From the IMG/VR virus record IMGVR_UViG_3300031977_000416, positions 1-24,132 of that record: a stretch of 24,132 bases of DNA; one strand, 5' to 3'. Below the pieces are notes generated by a model. The model was not told the DNA's origin and made no database searches. It saw only the letters and a program-made list of their open reading frames with translations. How positions within the stretch are numbered: the first letter of the stretch is position 1; each line of letters begins with the position of its first letter. Positions 5,023 through 22,471 of the stretch are shown in pieces. The translations under genes were made by a program, and so were the position numbers. Source of the stretch: a virus.

Positions 5023-6576
5023 ATGACCGCACAAAAAAGTATATTACAAAACGCATATGAAACAACATTAGCTTTAGCTATTGGTGCAGATGCAACTGAA
5101 GTATCAATTCAAGTAAATGCAGCACCAGTAGGAACACCAACATCATCAGAACCAATGTATTTGGTTATTGACCCAGATAGTGATAGCACTAGAGAGTATG
5201 TAAAAGTTACATCTAGAAGTGGTGTGTCACTTACTGTTGTAAGAAATATTGATAATGATAGTGGTGGGTTAAATGCACACGCTGTAGGTGCTAAAGTCAG
5301 AATGGTTGCTATGAAGCAACACTTTGATGATTTAAATGACAGAGTAGATACCATAATAAATGCAGATGGTACAGCAGTTGTAACTACAGGTGTAGTAAAA
5401 GATGAAGATGATTTAGTATCTAATAGTAATACACACCTTGCTACACAGCAATCAATCAAAGCTTATGTAGATAGTCAAGTAGCTAGTAAAGATGATTTAT
5501 CAGAACTTACTGGTACTACTGATGATGTTACAGAAGGTAGCGCAAACTTATACTTTACTACAGAAAGAGTAGATGACCAGGTTGCAGCATTATTAACTGA
5601 AGGTTCTAACATAACTTTAACTTATGATGATACAGCAGGAACACTTACAATAACTGCTGTAGAAGATGACCTTAGTAACAACACTACATCAGATTTAGCT
5701 GAAGGTACAAATTTATATTTTACAACAGAAAGAGTAGATGACCAAGTAGCTGCTTTGCTTACAGAAGGTTCTAATATAACACTTACTTATGATGATATTG
5801 CAGGTACATTAACTATTTCAGGTGTTGAAGATGACTTATCAAATAATACAACAGATGATTTAGCAGAAGGTTCAACTAATCTTTATTACACTACAGCTAG
5901 ATTTGATACTGCTTTTAGTGGTAAATCAACAACAGATTTAACAGAAGGTACAAACCTTTACTATACAACTGCAAGATTTGATACAGCATTTTCTGGTAAA
6001 ACTACTACAGACTTAACAGAAGGAACTAATCTTTATTACACAACTACAAGAGCTAACACAGATATAGATGCAAGAGTAACTAAATCTTTTGTTGATGCAC
6101 TTAATGTAGATGCAGATACTTTAGATGGTAGTGATAGCACAGCATTTGCTACATCTGCACAAGGTGCTTTAGCTGATAGTGCAGTACAACCTACTGATAG
6201 TGTTGATGTATTATCTGATGTAGATACAACTACTTCTACTCCTACAAGTGGTCAAGCATTACTTTGGGATGGTACTAATTGGATACCAGGAGATGTTGCT
6301 TCATCTACTGCTGCAAAGATTATTGATGCTGATGGTGATACTCAGATACAAACAGAAGAAAGTGCTGATGAAGATATACTTAGATTTGATACAGCAGGTG
6401 TAGAAAGAGCTACACTACAAGGTGCATTAGACCTAACAGATAATGGTGGTGCATTTATCCATAGTCAAACACAAGCAGGTACTTACACTATCAATTCTGG
6501 TAAAGGAACTTTATTCGCTGGACCAATAACCATTACTGGAACTGTAACTAATGCAGGTACAATGGTGGTTATTTAA
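5023..6576 (+). CDS. Tail fibre protein with tandem EGTNLYYTT repeats
   Basis: A 517-aa fibre. Residues 1-110 form an N-terminal module ending in LTVVRNIDNDSGG and NAHAVGAKVRM, similar in pattern to the module in the protein encoded at 2036, followed by QHFDDLNDRV (helical). The middle (about 169-343) holds five copies of a unit built on EGxNLYxTTxR; the first two carry an extra ALLTEGSNITLTYDD insert and the next two carry FDTAFSGK. Such units are typical of long phage fibres that trimerise into beta-helices or coiled segments. The C-terminal part ends in TITGTVTNAGTMVVI, a beta-rich tip. It likely links the tail to the receptor-binding proteins encoded next. It lies two bases after the nozzle gene and overlaps the following start by one base. 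Confidence 0.8.
   Translation: MTAQKSILQNAYETTLALAIGADATEVSIQVNAAPVGTPTSSEPMYLVIDPDSDSTREYVKVTSRSGVSLTVVRNIDNDSGGLNAHAVGAKVRMVAMKQHFDDLNDRVDTIINADGTAVVTTGVVKDEDDLVSNSNTHLATQQSIKAYVDSQVASKDDLSELTGTTDDVTEGSANLYFTTERVDDQVAALLTEGSNITLTYDDTAGTLTITAVEDDLSNNTTSDLAEGTNLYFTTERVDDQVAALLTEGSNITLTYDDIAGTLTISGVEDDLSNNTTDDLAEGSTNLYYTTARFDTAFSGKSTTDLTEGTNLYYTTARFDTAFSGKTTTDLTEGTNLYYTTTRANTDIDARVTKSFVDALNVDADTLDGSDSTAFATSAQGALADSAVQPTDSVDVLSDVDTTTSTPTSGQALLWDGTNWIPGDVASSTAAKIIDADGDTQIQTEESADEDILRFDTAGVERATLQGALDLTDNGGAFIHSQTQAGTYTINSGKGTLFAGPITITGTVTNAGTMVVI
5527..6051 (+). repeat. Tandem in-frame fibre repeats
   Basis: Five in-frame units encode E-G-(S/T)-x-N-L-Y-(F/Y)-T-T. Units 1-2 are about 165 bp apart and units 3-5 about 63-66 bp apart. 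Protein sequence is nearly identical between copies while synonymous positions differ, so the units are held by selection and are not fresh slippage copies. Confidence 0.85.
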
Positions 6577-6767
6577 TGGTTAATGTCAAAGTCAATACTA
6601 TAAGCACAAATGATGGCAACAATGTTGCTATGCAAGTGCCTTTAAATTTAAAGAATTATACAACTACAGAACGAGATGCTTTAACAAGTTCTGCTGGAGA
6701 TGTGATATACAACACCACAGACAGTAAAGTACAGTTCTATAATGGAACAAGCTGGAACGATTTATAA
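6576..6767 (+). CDS. Stand-alone fibre adaptor-domain protein (63 aa)
   Basis: The whole protein is the same module found at the N-termini of the next two genes: K-x-N-x-I-S-x-N-D-x-N-N-V-A, then YTTTERDALTSSAGDVIYNT, then VQFYNGTSWNDL. In those paralogues the module is followed by a polyglycine adhesin domain; here translation stops right after the final Leu. It overlaps the stop codon of the fibre before it and the start codon of the paralogue after it by one base each (TAATG), so it is embedded in a coupled operon and is a neat, full-length gene, not a broken one. It may cap or join fibre subunits, or be a remnant of a third adhesin. In other phages this module is a common fibre N-terminal attachment piece. 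Confidence 0.7.
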   Translation: MVNVKVNTISTNDGNNVAMQVPLNLKNYTTTERDALTSSAGDVIYNTTDSKVQFYNGTSWNDL

Positions 6768-7828
6768 TGAGTACACTAGAAACAAACTCTATAGGTAAAT
6801 ATTCTGGTAATAATATTTCTATTGATGATGCTTTAAATTTAAAGTCATACACCACAACACAAAGAGATGCACTTACATCTGTTGCTGGAGATATAATTTA
6901 CAATACTACTGAAAATAAACCACAATTTTACGATGGTACATCTTGGAATAGTTTTGGAAATGACTATTTTGCAGTAGAGTATTTAATCGTTGCTGGCGGT
7001 GGTGGAGGCGGCGGTGGTAATGGTGGTGGTTTTTACGAAGGTGGTGGAGGTGGTGGTGCTGGTGGATTTTTAAATTCATACGCATCTGAAAACTCTGGTG
7101 ATGAAAGTGCTGGATTAGATGAAGTAATCCTTGTTTCTGATGGTACTACATATCCAATAACTGTAGGTGCTGGAGGTTCTAGAAATTTTAAAGCTAGAGG
7201 TAGTAATGGTACTAATTCAAATTTTATGACTATTACTGCTATAGGTGGTGGAGGTGGAGGTTCTACTAATTATGGAAATGACAGAAATGGTGCTGCTGGA
7301 GGGTCATCAGGTGGCGGTGGTGCTGTTGGTGGTGGTAGAGGTTCTGCTACAGCTAACCAAGGTAATTTAGGTGGAGTTGGTGGTAGTGGAAATCCAAACT
7401 ATGGTGGTGGCGGTGGTGGTGGTGCTAGTAGTAATGGTGGTAGTGGAAGTAGTACTGGAGGTGTTGGCGGTCCTGGTCAAGATAGTTTAATAACTGGAAC
7501 ACTAACTTATTATGCTGGTGGCGGTGCAGGCGGAAGTTACAATACTACTAACCAATCTGGAGGTATTGGTGGTGGTGGTCAAGGTGGTAATCAAGGTACT
7601 GGAGGACCAACAGCAGGAACTGCTAACACAGGCGGCGGCGGAGGTGGTGGCGGTCGTGATGAAAGTTATGGCTCTAATGGTGGCTCTGGTGTAGTTATTT
7701 TAAGTTATTTAAAAGAAAAAACAATTTCTGTAGGTGCTGGTTTAACTTGGAGTGGAACAGAAGGAATTAATGGAGATTATAAATACGCTGTTTTTACAGC
7801 AGGAACAGGAACAGTAACTTTTAGTTAG
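6767..7828 (+). CDS. Polyglycine-rich tail fibre adhesin (paralogue A)
   Basis: A 353-aa protein in three parts. Residues 1-65 are the adaptor module shared with its neighbours (YTTTQRDALTSVAGDIIYNT, PQFYDGTSWNSF). Residues about 68-315 form a glycine-rich domain that starts with VEYLIVAGGGGGGGG and closes with GGSGVVILSYL, the start and end signature of the Gly-rich fibre domain family. Runs of four to eight Gly alternate with short N/S/T/A/Y loops, as in adhesins that pack polyglycine-II helices and recognise receptors through the loops. Residues 316-353 are a short beta-rich tail (ISVGAGLTWSGTEGINGDYKYAVF). It should be a receptor-binding protein; the loops are the probable specificity determinants. 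Confidence 0.8.
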   Translation: MSTLETNSIGKYSGNNISIDDALNLKSYTTTQRDALTSVAGDIIYNTTENKPQFYDGTSWNSFGNDYFAVEYLIVAGGGGGGGGNGGGFYEGGGGGGAGGFLNSYASENSGDESAGLDEVILVSDGTTYPITVGAGGSRNFKARGSNGTNSNFMTITAIGGGGGGSTNYGNDRNGAAGGSSGGGGAVGGGRGSATANQGNLGGVGGSGNPNYGGGGGGGASSNGGSGSSTGGVGGPGQDSLITGTLTYYAGGGAGGSYNTTNQSGGIGGGGQGGNQGTGGPTAGTANTGGGGGGGGRDESYGSNGGSGVVILSYLKEKTISVGAGLTWSGTEGINGDYKYAVFTAGTGTVTFS

Positions 7829-7834
7829 GATAAT

Positions 7835-8866
7835 ATGAGTGAATTAAAAACAAATAAGATTTCAACAAATGACCAAAACAATGTAGCTATAGATAATGCA
7901 CTTGGATTAAAGTCATATACAACTACTCAAAGAGATGCTTTAACTTCTGCTGCTGGAGATTTAATATATAATACTACTGAAGGTAAACCACAATTTTACA
8001 ATGGAACTGCTTGGGAAAATTTTGCAACACCACAATTAACAGTATCTTATCTTGTTATTGCAGGTGGAGGTGCAGGTGGTGGTGGTACAGGAGGAAACAG
8101 AAGTGGTGGTGGTGGTGCAGGAGGATATAGAAACTCTTATGCTTCTGAAACTTCTGGTGGTGGAGGTTCTACTGAAACACCATTAACTTTATTTACAGGA
8201 CAAGATTATATGGTCCAAGTGGGTGCTGGTGGTGCTATTTATAATGGCTCAACTATAGGAAGGAGTGGTAGCAATTCATCTTTTAGTACAGTATTAAGTT
8301 TAGGTGGTGGTGTTGGTGCAACTTTTGGATTATCTGGAGAAATAGGTGGTTCTGGTGGTGGAGGTGCTTATAATACTGCTCCTTCAAATGGAACAACTAA
8401 TCAAGGTTTTGCAGGTGGTGCAGCAAATACTTCATCTTTAAATAACTTTATTGGTGGTGGAGGTGGTGGTGCAGGTGCTGCTGGTAGTACTCGTGCTGGA
8501 GATGGTGCTGGAGGTGCAGGTTTAAGTTCATCAATTACAGGTTCTGCTATTTCAAGAGGTGGTGGAGGTGGTGGTGGAGTTGGTTCATCAAGAACACCTG
8601 CTACTGCACAAGATGGTGGTGGTACTGGTGGAGAAGAAAGTACAAGTCACGCAACTGCTGGAACTGCCAATACTGGTGGTGGTGGTGGTGGAAATGAAAG
8701 TGGTGCAAATGCTGCTAATGGTGGAAGTGGAGTAGTTATACTTCGTTATTCAAGTGATTATAGTATTACAGTAGGTACTGGTTTAACTGCTGGAACAGAA
8801 ACCACAGATGGTTCAGATAAGTACATAGAGATAACTGCTGGATATGGTGCAGTCAGTTGGAGTTAG
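7835..8866 (+). CDS. Polyglycine-rich tail fibre adhesin (paralogue B)
   Basis: A 343-aa paralogue of the preceding gene. The adaptor (1-67: YTTTQRDALTSAAGDLIYNT, PQFYNGTAWENF) and the tail (YSITVGTGLTAGTETTDGSDKYIEITAG) align well with it. The Gly-rich domain (about 70-305) opens with VSYLVIAGGGAGGGG and closes with GGSGVVILRY, but its inner loops are different. The same ends with divergent middles suggest duplication followed by loop replacement or recombination through the Gly-codon runs. The start follows TTAGGATAATATGA, nearly the same 14 bases that precede the fibre start at 5023. Confidence 0.8.
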   Translation: MSELKTNKISTNDQNNVAIDNALGLKSYTTTQRDALTSAAGDLIYNTTEGKPQFYNGTAWENFATPQLTVSYLVIAGGGAGGGGTGGNRSGGGGAGGYRNSYASETSGGGGSTETPLTLFTGQDYMVQVGAGGAIYNGSTIGRSGSNSSFSTVLSLGGGVGATFGLSGEIGGSGGGGAYNTAPSNGTTNQGFAGGAANTSSLNNFIGGGGGGAGAAGSTRAGDGAGGAGLSSSITGSAISRGGGGGGGVGSSRTPATAQDGGGTGGEESTSHATAGTANTGGGGGGNESGANAANGGSGVVILRYSSDYSITVGTGLTAGTETTDGSDKYIEITAGYGAVSWS

Positions 8867-8885: not shown

Positions 8886-9272
8886 ATGGCACATTACGCA
8901 TTTATAAACGAAAATAATATAGTAACAGAAGTCATTGTTGGAAAAGATGAGGATGACTTAGATACATTACCAGAAGGTTTTGCTAACTGGGAAGAATGGT
9001 ATGCAGATTTTAGAGGACAAACCTGTAAAAGAACTTCATACAATACTATAGCTAATACTCATACTGGAGATGGTACACCTTTTAGAGGTAACTATGCTGG
9101 TATAGGTTTTATTTATGACACAGAGAATGATGTATTCTATCCACCTCAACCTTATCCTAGTTGGATACTAAGTGCTGACTGGGTATGGGAAGCACCAGTT
9201 GCTTATCCTGATGATGGAGAAACATACATTTGGAATGAAAACCAAGGTAATTGGGAATTAGATAATGGCTAG
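8886..9272 (+). CDS. Conserved phage virion protein of the MAHYAF...YAGIG type
   Basis: A 128-aa Trp/Tyr-rich acidic protein. It begins MAHYAFINENNIVTEVIVG and contains GQTCKRTSYNT, PFRGNYAGIGFIYD and PPQPYPSWIL. I know this pattern from short structural proteins of marine cyanophages and other ocean phages, where the gene sits among tail genes; its exact role is unknown. The single Cys and the conserved NYAGIG loop are the most family-like features. An AGGAGA ribosome site lies 5 nt before the start, and the 3' end overlaps the next fibre by 8 bp. It may be a fibre accessory or baseplate-like piece. Confidence 0.65.
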   Translation: MAHYAFINENNIVTEVIVGKDEDDLDTLPEGFANWEEWYADFRGQTCKRTSYNTIANTHTGDGTPFRGNYAGIGFIYDTENDVFYPPQPYPSWILSADWVWEAPVAYPDDGETYIWNENQGNWELDNG

Positions 9273-10392
9273 TGAATTAAAAGTAGATACAATATCAGAA
9301 AAAACTACAGCTAGTGGTGTAACTATTGATGGCGTAGAACTTAAAGATGGTTCTGTAAAAGGTAATGGTTTAGGAAGAAAAAATCTTGTAATGAATGGAG
9401 ATTTTAGAATTGCACAAAGAGGTACTTCTTTCTCTCCTCTTACAACAGGTTCTTATCCTGCTGATAGATGGAATTGGCAATTAAATGCTTTTTCAGGTGC
9501 AGTAGATAGTACAATTTCAACAGGAACTCCTACTGGTTTTGGAAATTCTTTAAAGTTAGATTGTACAACTGCTAATACTTCTGTTGCAGCAAATAACTTT
9601 GTTCTTTTGAGAACACATTGGGAAGGACAAGATATACAACATTTAGCTTATGGTACTTCTGCTGCAAAATCTGTAACTATATCATTTTGGGTTTTTTCAA
9701 CTAAGACAGGAACTTTTAATGTAAGTTTATATAATGCTGATACCAGTCATTCTTATATTGTTGATGAAACTGTAGACACAGCATCAACTTGGGAAAAGAA
9801 AACAATCACTATTACTGGAGATACTGCTAATGCTTTTAATAATGATGCAAATAGAAGTTTAAGTCTTTATTTTGCTTTTAGTGCAGGAACTGATTATCAG
9901 GGAACTTCTGATAGTTGGATTTCTGGTTTTAAAATAGCTTCCTCAAATATAGATAACTTTTTTGACAGTACAGCAAATGAAATATATATAACAGGTGTAC
10001 AAATGGAAGTGGGTAGTGTAGCTACAGATTTTGAAGTAAGACCTATTGCAGAAGAACAGAGTTTATGCAACAGATATTATCAAATCTATATAGAGGGTTT
10101 TCAAGGAATAGCGACAGGTGCTATGTATAACTCAACAACAGTATTAGGTGTAATAAATTTTGAGGAAATGAGGGTAGCACCATCATTAGAAGTTGTTACA
10201 GGAACAAATTATTATAGATTTTGGAGAAATAATTCATCAGATGATTTTAATGATTTTGCTTTTTCAGGTGCTATTGGTAAAAAAAGTCTTAGATTGCAAA
10301 GTAATACAAATCTTTCTGGAACAGCAGGTCAATGTGGAACTATTGAAGGTTATCACGCTAATGCAAAAATGGCATTGGATGCAGAATTATGA
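9265..10392 (+). CDS. Tail fibre with carbohydrate-binding-like beta-sandwich
   Basis: A 375-aa protein. Residues 1-33 (SELKVDTISEKTTASGVTIDGV, ELKDGSVKG) are a fibre N-terminal adaptor. It is followed at about 37-55 by GRKNLVMNGDFRIAQRGTSF, the hallmark N-x-x-M-N-G-D-F-x-I-x-Q-R-G-T start of a beta-sandwich found in many phage tail fibres and tailspikes, and by YPADRWNWQL. The sandwich core spans about 40-245 and ends with ITGVQMEVGSVATDFEVRPIAEEQSLCNRYYQ, another family hallmark. The C-terminal 120 residues form a separate beta-rich tip. It likely binds surface sugars. The stop codon overlaps the next start (ATGA). Confidence 0.8.
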   Translation: MASELKVDTISEKTTASGVTIDGVELKDGSVKGNGLGRKNLVMNGDFRIAQRGTSFSPLTTGSYPADRWNWQLNAFSGAVDSTISTGTPTGFGNSLKLDCTTANTSVAANNFVLLRTHWEGQDIQHLAYGTSAAKSVTISFWVFSTKTGTFNVSLYNADTSHSYIVDETVDTASTWEKKTITITGDTANAFNNDANRSLSLYFAFSAGTDYQGTSDSWISGFKIASSNIDNFFDSTANEIYITGVQMEVGSVATDFEVRPIAEEQSLCNRYYQIYIEGFQGIATGAMYNSTTVLGVINFEEMRVAPSLEVVTGTNYYRFWRNNSSDDFNDFAFSGAIGKKSLRLQSNTNLSGTAGQCGTIEGYHANAKMALDAEL

Positions 10393-15265: not shown

Positions 15266-15540
15266 GTAGTTCTATATCTATTTAGATAAGCTTGTAATAA
15301 ATCCCTGTAATCTCTTTTAGCACCTGATACAGTCTTGCCGTCATATATGTCGTGATGTCTTTTACATAACATAGCTACATTATTTATGTCGTACTTACTT
15401 GCTTTATCTCTACCACCCATACCAATACCTAATATGTGTGCTAGTTCTAGCCAGTTAGTGTTGCCACAATTTGGCCACTCACACGCGTTTCTAGCCCTTT
15501 TAAGGGCCTGTTCTCTTAGTTCTGATAGATTGTCCATCAT
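15262..15540 (-). CDS. HNH nuclease
   Basis: A 92-aa HNH-fold protein. A Cys pair at C20/C25 (CEWPNC), the catalytic-type LELAHILGIG with H35, the D-x-x-N-V-A-M-L-C segment (N54, C59) and KRHHDIYDG (H62/H63) give a complete beta-beta-alpha-metal site with an added Cys4-type zinc knuckle. Phage HNH proteins either help terminase cut DNA or are homing/nicking nucleases; here it is the last gene of the early strand, far from any terminase in view. Two in-frame ATGs (15540 and 15537) follow a GAGGAGG ribosome site embedded in the 3' end of the upstream gene; the second has the better spacing. Confidence 0.85.
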   Translation of the reverse strand: MMDNLSELREQALKRARNACEWPNCGNTNWLELAHILGIGMGGRDKASKYDINNVAMLCKRHHDIYDGKTVSGAKRDYRDLLQAYLNRYRTT

Positions 15541-15839
15541 TCCTCCTCTGGATTATAAAGCTCGTATTTAACTGTAATTTCTTCGCCTGTAATTATTTCT
15601 ACTAATGTTCTTAATAAAAAAACTTTATTACCTTTTATTAATTCACAATTAGGAAAATTACTATGGTTTATAAATCCACCTAGTGGTGTACGAATTACAC
15701 CGTGTTGAAATAGTTTATCTTTAACGTGAGTAATACCTAGCACTTTACCCTTAGCGATAGGACGTGTACTAAAGAGGCCCAAGCCTTCCACTTTGGACCT
15801 CTTTATAGTTAATGATTTAGGTAATGGTTTATATTTCAT
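15537..15839 (-). CDS. SET-domain protein, probable lysine methyltransferase
   Basis: A minimal 100-aa SET domain. Hallmarks: the cofactor-binding start SKVEGLGLFSTRPIAKG (G19-x-G-x-F), the knot segment GGFINHSNFPNCEL (N-H-S at 58-60, replacing the usual N-H-S-C with a later Cys), and ITGEEITVKYELY (G85-E-E-I-T with the active-site-type Tyr). The post-SET zinc region is absent. SET enzymes move methyl groups from S-adenosylmethionine to lysines. A phage copy could modify a host or virion protein. I chose the Met at 15839 because the longer upstream frame lies inside the previous gene and does not look like SET sequence; the two genes then overlap by 11 bp. The 3' end EEE encodes the ribosome site of the HNH gene. 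Confidence 0.8.
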   Translation of the reverse strand: MKYKPLPKSLTIKRSKVEGLGLFSTRPIAKGKVLGITHVKDKLFQHGVIRTPLGGFINHSNFPNCELIKGNKVFLLRTLVEIITGEEITVKYELYNPEEE

Positions 15840-16446
15840 CAGGATAACTGTATACAGTTTCAGGATTGAAGTATGGGTCATACTCTGGAAAATCCCAAGC
15901 TCTATACAAATCTGCGTAACTAATATCTGTAGGGCCAGTACCACCACCTACATATATAGCGTGTGCTACTTTACTTAAAAAGAATTTAGTAACTTTCTTT
16001 TTATAAAAACCTTTATGATTTTTAGCGTCAGCTAAGTTCTTAAGACGCTGTAACCAATATAAAGTTTTCACTGTTACTTCACCACGTTGATGTGATATCT
16101 TTCTTGTAAGCTGGTCGTCTGTATCATATATTGTTTCGTTATGTTTATATGAATAACGTTGGCCAGCAAACATAGAACCTTCCTGTAATAAGACTGATAA
16201 GTTATGAGTAAAGTCTATTTTTAAATTACCGTCTTTATATACAGTGTAACTAGCAAATACCCTATTGCCCTTTGGCGTCAAGCCAAGAAATCTCTTTCCG
16301 CCAAAGCTATCTATTGTTTTAGCGTACTCCATCTTAGCTTTACGTTTCTTAATTTTACGTTTAGCTTGTTCTACTAATTGGTCATTAGATAAATCATTGT
16401 AACCTTTAGGTGCAAATACGCTATTATTGGTCGCGTTATAAACCAC
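15829..16446 (-). CDS. Unrecognised basic protein (205 aa)
   Basis: It starts with GTG at 16446, directly after an AAGGAGGA ribosome site. The N-terminal 40 residues are helical and very basic (QAKRKIKKRKAKMEYA). A beta-rich middle follows (GLTPKGNRVFASYTVYKDGN; LKIDFTHNLSVLL), then TVKTLYWLQRLKNLADA and a Tyr/Pro-rich end (YADLYRAWDFPEYDPYFNPE). No Cys/His metal site, no membrane helix, no known motif. The gene overlaps neighbours on both sides, so it belongs to the early operon. Charge suggests nucleic-acid contact, but this is weak. Confidence 0.6.
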   Translation of the reverse strand: MVYNATNNSVFAPKGYNDLSNDQLVEQAKRKIKKRKAKMEYAKTIDSFGGKRFLGLTPKGNRVFASYTVYKDGNLKIDFTHNLSVLLQEGSMFAGQRYSYKHNETIYDTDDQLTRKISHQRGEVTVKTLYWLQRLKNLADAKNHKGFYKKKVTKFFLSKVAHAIYVGGGTGPTDISYADLYRAWDFPEYDPYFNPETVYSYPDEI

Positions 16447-20241: not shown

Positions 20242-21741
20242 TTATAACTGATTAAGTTCTAAAGCAAATTTCTTTACTTCATCTATATCAGCTAATCTAG
20301 TAATGCCAGACTTCCTCATAATCTGGTTACATTCTTTTAATAAATTTGCACTGCTTGTATTATCTGCACCAAATACATACATATCTGATACCCATATACG
20401 TTTAGGTGCTTGTTGAGATAACCAACGTAGTGCTGGACCATCTACTAAGTTACCTCCACCTGTCCACTTATCTAAGTATTCTTGATTAACACGTTTACCT
20501 TTGTCACCAATAATACGTAATGAACCTACATCATAGCTATATCTTCTTTGTGTTTTGTTATTAGTTGAGTTATACATAGCTATTTTTACAGCAGGTAACA
20601 TCTGCATTATTTCTAAGATGTCATCACCAGTAAAGTGCATAGAACCTGATGCGTCTATTAAGATAGTACCACCATAAGTACGTTGTCTTTGTTTAAAGAC
20701 TTTCTTATCTACGCACCATCTATTCATATACTTAGGATTAACACCGTAATCCATAGGCCTATACTCTCTACCACCTTTGATTTTACCTTGAAGGTTTACA
20801 GATAATTCTGGTGTGTATATTTCCATACGACCCCATCTACCTGTCATATCATTGATGTCTGGTTCATAGTTCATATCAGCACTTGCTAATATTTCAGACA
20901 TTTCATACTTACTTTCAAGCATAGATTCTTCCAATGTTTTGTTGTCACTTTCGCCTTCGGCTTGTGACTTACTAGCATTGCGATTAGCAGATTGTTTTTG
21001 TTTAGCAGCTTCTTTAGCTTTACGTATTGATTCATAAACCTGTTCGTCTGTTGGACGTTCGCTAAAATCATCACGTAATTTGCTAAGTTCTTTTGCTACT
21101 TTACGAACTTTACGATAACTAACCATAGTTGCGTAAGTATGTCTATTTTGTAGAATATTTCTATAGAACTTATTAGCTCTATTTAAAGCCCAATCTAATT
21201 GTGCTTTTCTATAACCAGTTAATTCTCCAGAGTCTTGCACTTCTTTACATAGTTTTAAGAAGTTTTTATATTCTGGATTGTTAGGTTCACGATTCCAGTA
21301 GTAATGATTATCATCTGTTACGTGCCACATCTTAGACATAAGATAAGTAATAAGTTCATATTCTGAAAACTTGTATATAGCTTCATAATCTAAACGTGTT
21401 ACTTTATCTGGACACATAACCCAGTCTTTTATCTCTAATCCTTTGCGACCTAGTAAATAATTAATTCTTACTTCTTCGCAAACTTCTACAGAGAATGAGT
21501 CTTCGTCTTCACCAAGTTTACCTACAGTCATTGGTGACCATTTGACGTGACCTAGTTCGTGTCGTCTGATATATTTTGAGTGATTAATGCCACATTCTGT
21601 ACATTCATTGTCTAAAGGTACGTGCATTTCTTTAGACATATTAGATGTACGTGGCTGGTCAGCGTCTTCAAAGATACGCCAACCAGCTTTACCAGATACT
21701 ATCTCTGGGAATGGTGCATTAACGTGATTATTCTTCCTCAT
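20242..21741 (-). CDS. Metallopeptidase-like plus VWA-domain protein (CobT/DUF2201-type), partner of the AAA+ ATPase
   Basis: A 499-aa protein. N-terminal: CTEC (C47, C50), then RRHELGHVKW with a complete H-E-x-x-H (H61-E62-H65) and a later E-E-V-R-I-N (E89/E90), as in zincin-type domains of VWA partners. A charged linker (about 235-285, KAKEAAKQKQSANRNASKSQ) leads to a VWA domain with a full metal-ion site: GGTILIDASGSMHF (D363, S365, S367), GGGNLVDGP (428-436) and VSDMYVFG (D453). MoxR/CobS-like ATPases and such VWA proteins work as pairs to remodel or insert metal into target proteins. The gene overlaps the ATPase by 14 bp. The usual cobalamin-synthesis label is unlikely here. Confidence 0.8.
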   Translation of the reverse strand: MRKNNHVNAPFPEIVSGKAGWRIFEDADQPRTSNMSKEMHVPLDNECTECGINHSKYIRRHELGHVKWSPMTVGKLGEDEDSFSVEVCEEVRINYLLGRKGLEIKDWVMCPDKVTRLDYEAIYKFSEYELITYLMSKMWHVTDDNHYYWNREPNNPEYKNFLKLCKEVQDSGELTGYRKAQLDWALNRANKFYRNILQNRHTYATMVSYRKVRKVAKELSKLRDDFSERPTDEQVYESIRKAKEAAKQKQSANRNASKSQAEGESDNKTLEESMLESKYEMSEILASADMNYEPDINDMTGRWGRMEIYTPELSVNLQGKIKGGREYRPMDYGVNPKYMNRWCVDKKVFKQRQRTYGGTILIDASGSMHFTGDDILEIMQMLPAVKIAMYNSTNNKTQRRYSYDVGSLRIIGDKGKRVNQEYLDKWTGGGNLVDGPALRWLSQQAPKRIWVSDMYVFGADNTSSANLLKECNQIMRKSGITRLADIDEVKKFALELNQL

Positions 21742-22471
21742 TAAGCTTGCCTAAATCTTGTAGGTTTGCTTCATCTGATAATGTAATCGCGTCAAGAAGT
21801 TCTTCACCTCTCTCACCAAACACTAACTGAGCTGCAATGTTCTTGTCAACTTGCTTAGCGGTTAAGTCAAAGAACTCTTTCCAGCTACGTATAGATAGTC
21901 TTGTGTCCATATCTTCTGATAAAGATGTATCAGATACGACTTTATGCCAAGATTTAGGAAAGATAGACAGTGCTTTAGGGTGAATTGTATCAACCTTAAT
22001 CTTTACTGGGAACCTATCTTTCAATGCCATAGGCAAGCTATCTGGTTCTGAGTTGGTTGTTGCTATAACAGTAAAGCCTTCTTTAGGTCTTACTGTTTCT
22101 TTGTTGTCATTGTTAAGTGTCAACTGTGCAATTGCTTTGTCATCCATAATGGCGTGTAAGAATGTCATTGCGTCTGGTGATGCGTGGTCAATCTCGTTGA
22201 CTACCAATCTACCACCTGTACGCCACGCTTGTATTGCAATACCATCGTGCCATTCAAAGCCACCTGCATTGTTAGGTTTATAAAAACCTTCTAAGTTTGC
22301 ACTAGCTGTATCTTCTGTCATTGTTATCTGATACACATTAGGTTCTCCGTCCATATTGTATCCGATTTTATTTGTTGCAGCTGCATATGTTTTACCTGTG
22401 CCTGGTGGCCCGTATAACAATATTCTGTCTGCGTTACCAATAGCGTTAGCTACTAAGTTCCAACAATCCAT
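21728..22471 (-). CDS. MoxR/CobS-type AAA+ ATPase
   Basis: A 247-aa AAA+ protein. Walker A at 21-28 (LLYGPPGTGKTYAA), pore-loop-like segment ANLEGFYKPN, Walker B LVVNEIDHA (89-97), sensor 1 VIATTNS (135-141), and the Arg-finger-like D-R-F-P (R153). SIRSWKEFFDL in the C-terminal lid is a typical sensor 2 region. It lacks accessory domains and is close to the minimal size for the MoxR group. It should form a ring that uses ATP to act on a client together with the VWA/metallopeptidase protein encoded next (14-bp overlap). It overlaps the previous gene by one base. Many phages carry this pair; its client is not known. Confidence 0.85.
   Translation of the reverse strand: MDCWNLVANAIGNADRILLYGPPGTGKTYAAATNKIGYNMDGEPNVYQITMTEDTASANLEGFYKPNNAGGFEWHDGIAIQAWRTGGRLVVNEIDHASPDAMTFLHAIMDDKAIAQLTLNNDNKETVRPKEGFTVIATTNSEPDSLPMALKDRFPVKIKVDTIHPKALSIFPKSWHKVVSDTSLSEDMDTRLSIRSWKEFFDLTAKQVDKNIAAQLVFGERGEELLDAITLSDEANLQDLGKLNEEE

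Follow-up and report, generated by a model that had tools for sequence, protein, structure and literature searches.

The fibre protein gp24 of cyanophage Pam3 is described as starting with a part for docking and trimerisation, which is followed by a glycine-rich tip whose distal loops vary, and the same report points out its likeness to ALK and distinguishes a stem that is conserved from a distal tip that varies (PMC9608196). In phages T2, S16 and PP01, gp38 is reported to form a polyglycine sandwich with hypervariable receptor loops at the fibre tip, and its N-terminus decides which gp37 is accepted, according to a T2-PP01 chimera (PMC12892980). The Kuttervirus CBA120 is described with a branched complex of four tailspikes whose N-terminal regions set the assembly (PMC8825819), and Mtd of a Bordetella phage is presented as a homotrimer at the fibre end (PMC3567102). 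Here we analyze three consecutive genes, named A, B1 and B2, from a complete virus record of 24,132 bases (IMG/VR IMGVR_UViG_3300031977_000416; hereafter, the window). We favor, with moderate confidence, that they constitute a tandem receptor-binding cassette of several slots, in which the heads are exchangeable and one slot, A, is headless and codes for a structural piece of the virion. Fibre genes are mosaic between phages; in this cassette, which is a variant of the known multi-receptor-binding-protein systems, one genome keeps several slots and the heads cross between them, with exchange points inside an N-terminal adaptor.

The adaptor is a module of about 63 residues common to the N-termini of A, B1 and B2. 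When A was used as a query against the window record, it matched three places only, i.e., A itself, the B2 adaptor (7841-8020; 67% identity, E 2e-25) and the B1 adaptor (6773-6952; 60% identity, E 2.6e-23), a threefold likeness that is far beyond chance. The heads of B1 and B2 match the family PF21722 (Gly_rich_2; Pfam cut-off 24.3 bits) at residues 69-314 (E 2.3e-20, 74 bits) and 69-305 (E 9.4e-14, 52.4 bits), respectively, and both proteins also match phrog_2295; a Pfam search of A gave no match. The first-pass annotation of this DNA had described three consecutive adaptor copies, the first alone and the next two fused to glycine-rich adhesins, and the open reading frames (ORFs) and the search with A agree with it. 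Overall, B1 and B2 are 50% identical; what they have in common is the adaptor, a large number of glycine runs and some of the C-terminal region, and the intervening stretches differ, as that annotation had also noticed.

Relatives were collected by scanning IMG/VR with B1, A, B2, an alignment of 94 adaptor rows, another A and the adaptor of locus L069; together with one match from a genome collection, this gave 324 loci (325 sequences with the window, other families included). Merging the loci with identical first 180 bases of the adaptor gene yielded 61 clusters. The array of the window has three members, and the headed copies range from 1 to 5 per contig (29 contigs, some of them cut short); therefore, the receptor diversity of each phage could be read from metagenomes.

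The comparison of slots was made with 68 rows (33 B1 and 35 B2) after dropping 9 same-slot near copies, an earlier version having 44 rows. Identity within and between slots was 0.956 and 0.600 for residues 1-10, 0.915 and 0.469 for residues 11-20, and 0.843 and 0.713 for residues 21-30. The two values converged in the next three stretches, from residue 31 to 63 (0.740 and 0.739, 0.666 and 0.653, 0.480 and 0.483), and in residues 64-353 (0.392 and 0.393). The nearest row from another genome belonged to the same slot in 68, 68 and 62 of the 68 cases for the first three stretches, and in 26-40 of the 68 for the later ones. Judging from these identities, the slot signal is confined almost wholly to residues 1-30, and past residue 30 B1 and B2 are practically interchangeable across phages. 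The adaptor is thus not one unit, its slot tag (residues 1-30) and its head-side module (residues 31-63) behaving differently; the 60-residue unit proposed in the first-pass annotation is real as a repeat, but it splits into these two parts. The loss of slot signal is hardly plain saturation, because residues 31-50 are still 65-74% identical and because direct swaps were found.

Two swaps cross between slots. B1 of L141 and B3 of L028 are 0.91 identical in the body and 0.50 in the tag, their DNA identity per ten residues being 0.40, 0.57 and 0.70 and then 0.93-1.00 from residue 31, with later dips. The same values for body and tag (0.91 and 0.50) were obtained for B1 of L171 and B2 of L141, where the exchange extends from residue ~55-61 to ~313; residues 61-313 show a DNA identity of 0.82-1.00 per ten residues, and both flanks differ. 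In the same-slot pairs L141/L028 B1 and L171/L141 B1, the tag agrees and the body differs. The shared ends and differing loops of B1 and B2 can therefore be read as recombination arms and cargo. According to the reading that we favor, each headed gene would comprise three parts, namely a tag for docking (residues 1-30), a small module for trimerisation (residues 23-63) and a head like that of Pam3 gp24, whose variable loops would contact the host. The sequences document that heads move across slots and phages, with the tags staying in place, by recombination that takes place either within the conserved adaptor or around the head. Docking and binding would be separable for testing, since the need of the slot (residues 1-30) is parted from the need of the head (residue 31 onward).

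Structures were predicted as monomers only, for A and B1 with AlphaFold2 (AF2), and B2 was not folded. The B1 model (64 rows; mean predicted local distance difference test (pLDDT) 90.9) presents a gp24-type glycine-rich layer with flanking beta strands. The best match of the head, compared by head fold alone, is the tail-tip protein of Bxb1 (9d93 chain Qb; Z 13.8, 175 residues aligned). The head fold is also like that of Pam3 gp24 (7ypx/7yfw), residues 65-320 of B1 giving Z 13.4, a root-mean-square deviation (rmsd) of 2.8 and 31% identity over 172 aligned residues with 7ypx, and Z 12.7 in a second Pam3 match. The glycine-rich domains of ALK/LTK follow with Z 4.8-5.5; gp38 of S16 and PP01 was not among the fold matches listed for B1, and a search of B1 against PDB sequences gave nothing useful.

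The AF2 model of A, built from the 94-row alignment, has a mean pLDDT of 91.8 (other models, 80-85). Its residues 23-63 match residues 5-47 of Mtd (Z 5.0, rmsd 1.9, 41 aligned), residues 583-622 of CBA120 TSP3 (Z 4.5, rmsd 1.3), the trimerisation domains of collagen XV (Z 3.9) and collagen XVIII (Z 3.0-3.5), and phage or streptococcal hyaluronidases (Z 3.1-3.8); the B1 module matches Mtd with Z 5.1. The Mtd, TSP3 and collagen XV matches (Z 3.9-5.0, rmsd 1.3-2.2, 38-41 residues) are all weak and are intermixed with unrelated rows, e.g., that of a ribosome-associated factor (Z 2.8-2.9), and the module gave nothing convincing against PDB sequences (best E 0.83). We regard the theme of trimer elements among these matches to the model as suggestive, no more.

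The N-terminal part of Pam3 gp24 is helical, whereas the window proteins have a tag and a small beta module, and Pam3 is described with one fibre gene and a chaperone, whereas here there are several slots and a headless paralogue. With respect to gp38 of T2, S16 and PP01, the differences are the several tandem copies and the N-terminus, in which the gp38 type was not recognised. The array resembles CBA120 in that one phage has several receptor-binding proteins and that these differ in their N-terminal regions, here the slot tags, which would have a role in placement; the CBA120 complex is described as built on the XD domains of TSP4 and TSP2, a description in which a headless member does not figure, and A matches residues 23-75 of TSP4 weakly (Z 3.3, rmsd 4.2). 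The variable part of Mtd, whose residues 5-47 resemble the A module, has a C-type lectin fold and is diversified by a retroelement, whereas here whole heads are exchanged between slots. A limited literature search, covering its sources in part, did not meet fixed slot tags under crossing heads or a conserved head-free slot; prior publication is possible.

Several observations weigh against this reading of the cassette. We infer that the tag docks because it is conserved and lies at the N-terminus, and from the genes where A would sit in the particle; moreover, the tag of B1 is poorly predicted (pLDDT 52-56 for residues 1-20) and the best fold match of the module reaches Z 5.0, with a Foldseek E of 0.29, a level at which the likeness may reflect a common arrangement. 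Heads also appear to pass between phages inside one slot, as in B1 of L009 and L026, whose heads are alike (0.85). Before the removal of near copies there was a faint slot signal in the body, permutations being as high in 4/200 (residues 64-314) and 6/200 (64-353) cases. It fades with 44 rows (36/300 and 64/300, respectively) and with 68 rows (175/300 for residues 64-353); nevertheless, the nearest row for residues 64-314 was still from the same slot in 30 of the 44, and residues 41-50 retain a small signal in the 68 rows (0.666 vs 0.653; 4/300 permutations).

The second element of the cassette is gene A, which raises the question of why this uncultured marine group keeps a head-free copy before its adhesins. 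Counting only distinct B1 genes for which the sequence upstream is covered, an intact A directly precedes 37 of 37; in three further B1 rows the locus start is less than 200 bases away. The scan seeded with B1 found A in 29 of 30 loci, near-duplicates included; the A of L004 lacks its start codon, and L029 begins at B2. These counts are fairer than the others, because A was a query and because type A was set by length (up to 70 amino acids (aa)), which is partly circular. By clusters, 46 of the 61 hold an A of at least 58 aa, 38 of them together with B1/B2 and 8 beside headed genes outside the B1/B2 naming rules or beside broken ones (L174). Seven more have B1/B2 on contigs that start before or inside the place of A (in L004, A minus its start codon), and eight have neither an A of at least 58 aa nor B1/B2 (L293, L240-L244, L236 and L239). 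In L293, A is cut by the contig end, the sole exception to the length rule for A; L236 and L239, which are undecided cases with respect to A, have one headed gene each, at a distance of 425 and 506 bases, respectively, from the start of the contig. The A counts exclude six rows shorter than 58 aa (one each in L031, L171 and L136, and three in L174), because these belong to broken genes, either headed or downstream ones.

A is 63 aa long in 39 of 46 non-duplicate arrays, 62 aa in three, and 60, 61, 64 or 65 aa in the others. Its start overlaps the stop of the upstream fibre gene and its stop overlaps the start of B1, and in 43 of 46 clusters a TAATG overlap links A with the gene that follows. 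Among pairs with dS 0.05-1.5, the ratio of nonsynonymous to synonymous substitutions (dN/dS) has a median of 0.225 for A (298/351 pairs), 0.324 for the B1 adaptor (324/351 pairs) and 0.300 for the B2 adaptor (289/300 pairs), by which measure A is under purifying selection. In a tree of 94 adaptor domains, with few columns and a bootstrap that had not settled, A forms one group (28 rows, support 98/94), B2 another (25 rows, 90/83) and B1 a third with a single L043 row (27 rows plus this one, 99/97).

Residues 51-63, which in B1 and B2 adjoin the exchangeable head, are 0.74 identical among A genes, compared with 0.50 among B1 and 0.49 among B2. Residues 1-20 of A are 0.70 identical within A and 0.43-0.51 to other slots, and no headed gene bearing an A-type tag was found among the surveyed loci. 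The tag of A is farther from those of B1 (0.43) and B2 (0.46) than these are from each other (0.53), so that A seems to have a site to itself. No conserved slippery heptamer for a frameshift fusion of A to its neighbors was seen by eye at the junctions, and a promoter scan gave none at the A/B1 junction (8 promoter-like sites against a shuffle mean of 15.7).

The first-pass annotation had also taken the array for a host-range cassette of paralogues made by duplication and had proposed comparing copy number and loops in relatives. The Pam3-fibre-like heads, the variable copy number (up to five headed copies) and the movement of heads between slots bear out the cassette; duplication is right as well, but the separate A, B1 and B2 groups of the tree indicate that it is old. 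That annotation had counted A as kept intact, and absence or disruption in all relatives would have made it a simple remnant. We rejected the idea of a decaying remnant of a third adhesin, which we hold to be extremely improbable: the adaptor is common to A and the full adhesins, but A is intact in 37/37 cases and in 46 arrays, forms one clade, stops at the same module boundary and shows purifying selection. Since it is kept headless in relatives too, A is a conserved part and not debris.

What this part does can be read in several ways, of which a structural connector, collar or plug is, from the sequence comparisons, probably the correct one. A has its own tag and module, no head and a conserved chain end, and would be coupled to its neighbors through the gene overlaps; its product would form a small trimer with a separate docking site, located either next to the headed fibres or at the end of the fibre coded upstream. 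A structural role fits best because of this own tag, the fixed chain end, the lack of a headed version and the overlap with the upstream fibre gene. Small adjacent chaperones are common for phage fibres, and A might instead act on the heads or the upstream fibre as an assembly chaperone or a transient cap and not be part of the mature particle, which we consider unlikely. Chaperones of marine Alteromonas phages have been proposed as transient caps (PMC10579305), and Pam3 gp25 is described as the chaperone of gp24 (PMC9608196); however, A has only the tag and module seen in its headed paralogues and lacks the fibre-binding and helical domains that gp25 is described to have as separate units, and the 128-aa gene found after the array in the 17 of 17 arrays listed is an equally good candidate.

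To a similarly low degree we credit that A co-trimerises with B1 and B2 via the shared module, setting the number of heads per fibre tip. The module core is near-identical (G41 and W60 are invariant in 94 rows, and A35, L36, A40, D42, Y45 and N46 nearly so) and the A, B1 and B2 genes are adjacent and overlapping, but over 24 genomes the A module does not clearly follow the module of B1 (rho 0.16, p 0.09) or the module of B2 (rho 0.02, p 0.44). In addition, module identity within the own genome (0.68 and 0.68) is barely above that with other genomes (0.65 and 0.67), and L008 and L044 pair a strongly diverged A module with ordinary B modules; mixed trimers are possible, with little support in covariation. 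Besides a cap, which A may be, the first-pass annotation had seen in A a possible decoy or competitor occupying the attachment sites of the adhesins, and A indeed has the same overall module and lacks the head. A decoy would be expected to share the tag of the protein that it displaces, which A does not, so the idea of a decoy is weakened, and conservation wherever the place of A is covered suits an integral part better than a modulator; we now consider it improbable. About as improbable is that A serves as a coupling cistron or a recombination landing pad whose protein is of little importance: the TAATG overlap was present in 28 of 28 arrays of an earlier set and A stands at the 5' edge of the recombining array, but its dN/dS is below that of the B1 and B2 adaptors, and its tag and chain end are conserved as protein.

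The coordinates of the array and of its neighbors are collected in Table 1.

Table 1. Features of the receptor-binding array and flanking genes in the window.
Feature	Position	Strand	Evidence
Gene A, headless, adaptor-only protein, 63 aa	6576..6767	+	ORF list; conservation upstream of B1
Gene B1, adaptor and glycine-rich head, 353 aa	6767..7828	+	PF21722; AF2; fold matches
Gene B2, adaptor and glycine-rich head, 343 aa	7835..8866	+	PF21722; alignment with B1
Slot tag of A, residues 1-30	6576..6665	+	Within-A vs between-slot identity
Slot tag of B1, residues 1-30, starts MSTLETNSIGKY	6767..6856	+	Nearest-row test
Slot tag of B2, residues 1-30, starts MSELKTNKISTND	7835..7924	+	Nearest-row test
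Putative trimerisation module of A, residues 23-63	6642..6764	+	Weak fold matches
Putative trimerisation module of B1, residues 23-63	6833..6955	+	Mtd Z 5.1
Putative trimerisation module of B2, residues 23-63	7901..8023	+	Alignment with B1 only, B2 not folded
Exchangeable head of B1, residues 64-353, glycine-rich with flanking strands	6956..7825	+	Fold matches; no slot signal
Exchangeable head of B2, residues 64-343	8024..8863	+	PF21722; B1 alignment; no slot signal
TAATG stop/start overlap, A to B1	6765..6769	+	Conserved across arrays; would couple translation
Upstream fibre protein, 517 aa, C-terminus GPITITGTVTNAGTMVVI, stop overlaps A start	5023..6576	+	
128-aa gene directly after the array, phrog_7759 (function unassigned)	8886..9272	+	
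Fibre-type gene, phrog_4492 tail fibre, N-terminus MASELKVDTISEKTT resembling slot tags	9265..10392	+	

Of 24 arrays examined for the upstream gene, 22 yielded it and each copy ends like AGPITITGTVTNNGTMVVI, those of L024 and L043 being the most diverged. The 128-aa gene at 8886-9272, whose homologues in the relatives have 128-134 aa, is a candidate fibre chaperone. In the 16 of 16 arrays that cover it (L017 ends before), the next gene has a SELKVDTISEKT-type N-terminus, with a body of 375 aa in the window and 133-218 aa in twelve others, and is tag-only (44 aa) in L021, L022 and L026. The N-termini of this type of gene in relatives match the tag profile with E 6e-6 to 0.06, against a background of 0.16 for the best shuffled sequence and 0.08 for a chance window ORF; the window's own gene at 9265 does not reach 0.1, and a BLASTP search of it against B2 gave nothing. 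The C-terminal half of the module sits at the C-terminus of long fibre proteins in more distant phages, e.g., L045-L055, and a single ORF of L063 (5248-7395) contains 14 tandem copies of it.

Other headless adaptor genes were observed. The 44-aa genes in the downstream SELKVDTISEKT slot (L021:4629-4763, L022:8233-8367 and L026:7543-7677) are each followed by a 107-110-aa gene without a tag. A second adaptor-only family of 81-82 aa, MSILKVNEIRPR, whose tag is of another type, occurs in L240:2603-2848, L241:994-1239, L242:5001-5246, L243:901-1146 and L244:5001-5249; its members end in ..GLV.AL.. and a 109-110-aa gene follows in 5/5. The 44-aa and 81-82-aa genes have like ends (..GLV[VIL]AL..) and a follower of 107-110 aa starting with MAE or MAN in 8/8 cases. 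Headless genes of 62 and 72 aa also stand beside headed paralogues in L095:4001-4189 and L096:4001-4219, with an unrelated tag family (MAIQISGTTVID; MAIQISGTTVIDDSR/NSR; L095 is the same contig as L069). Headless adaptors might, as a tentative idea, make up a distinct class in the fibre clusters of marine phages, i.e., tag-docked, trimerising connectors whose fixed chain end would be offered to a partner encoded by another gene and which would set the spacing or valency of exchangeable heads.

Regarding the origin of these phages, an adaptor query against cultured phages gave 18 records, all cyanophages, the adaptor of L069 matched no phage record, and the major capsid protein is at most 30% identical to that of cultured phages, the best being Mycobacterium phages; a close cultured relative was not found. 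The bacterial collection yielded one locus only, an intact A-B1-B2 array (L128:5001-7290) in CP070815.1, a metagenome-assembled genome of Gemmatimonadota. It lies on a piece of ~3 kb between runs of N, with a guanine-cytosine content of 0.40-0.47 compared with 0.53-0.69 around it, and we rejected Gemmatimonadota as the host, the piece being probably a mis-binned phage contig. In L031:6192-8369, L136, L171 and L174, B1, B2 or B3 is broken by apparent frameshifts and A is intact; since all four come from sample 3300050343, sequencing error is possible.

Elsewhere in the window, 20242-22471 on the minus strand holds an AAA ATPase gene (phrog_16448, also phrog_249, porphyrin biosynthesis), and beside it there is a 499-aa gene that, from its sequence, we take to be a VWA/CobT-like partner. 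The minus-strand ORF at 15537-15947 may code for a SET-domain protein, judged by eye.

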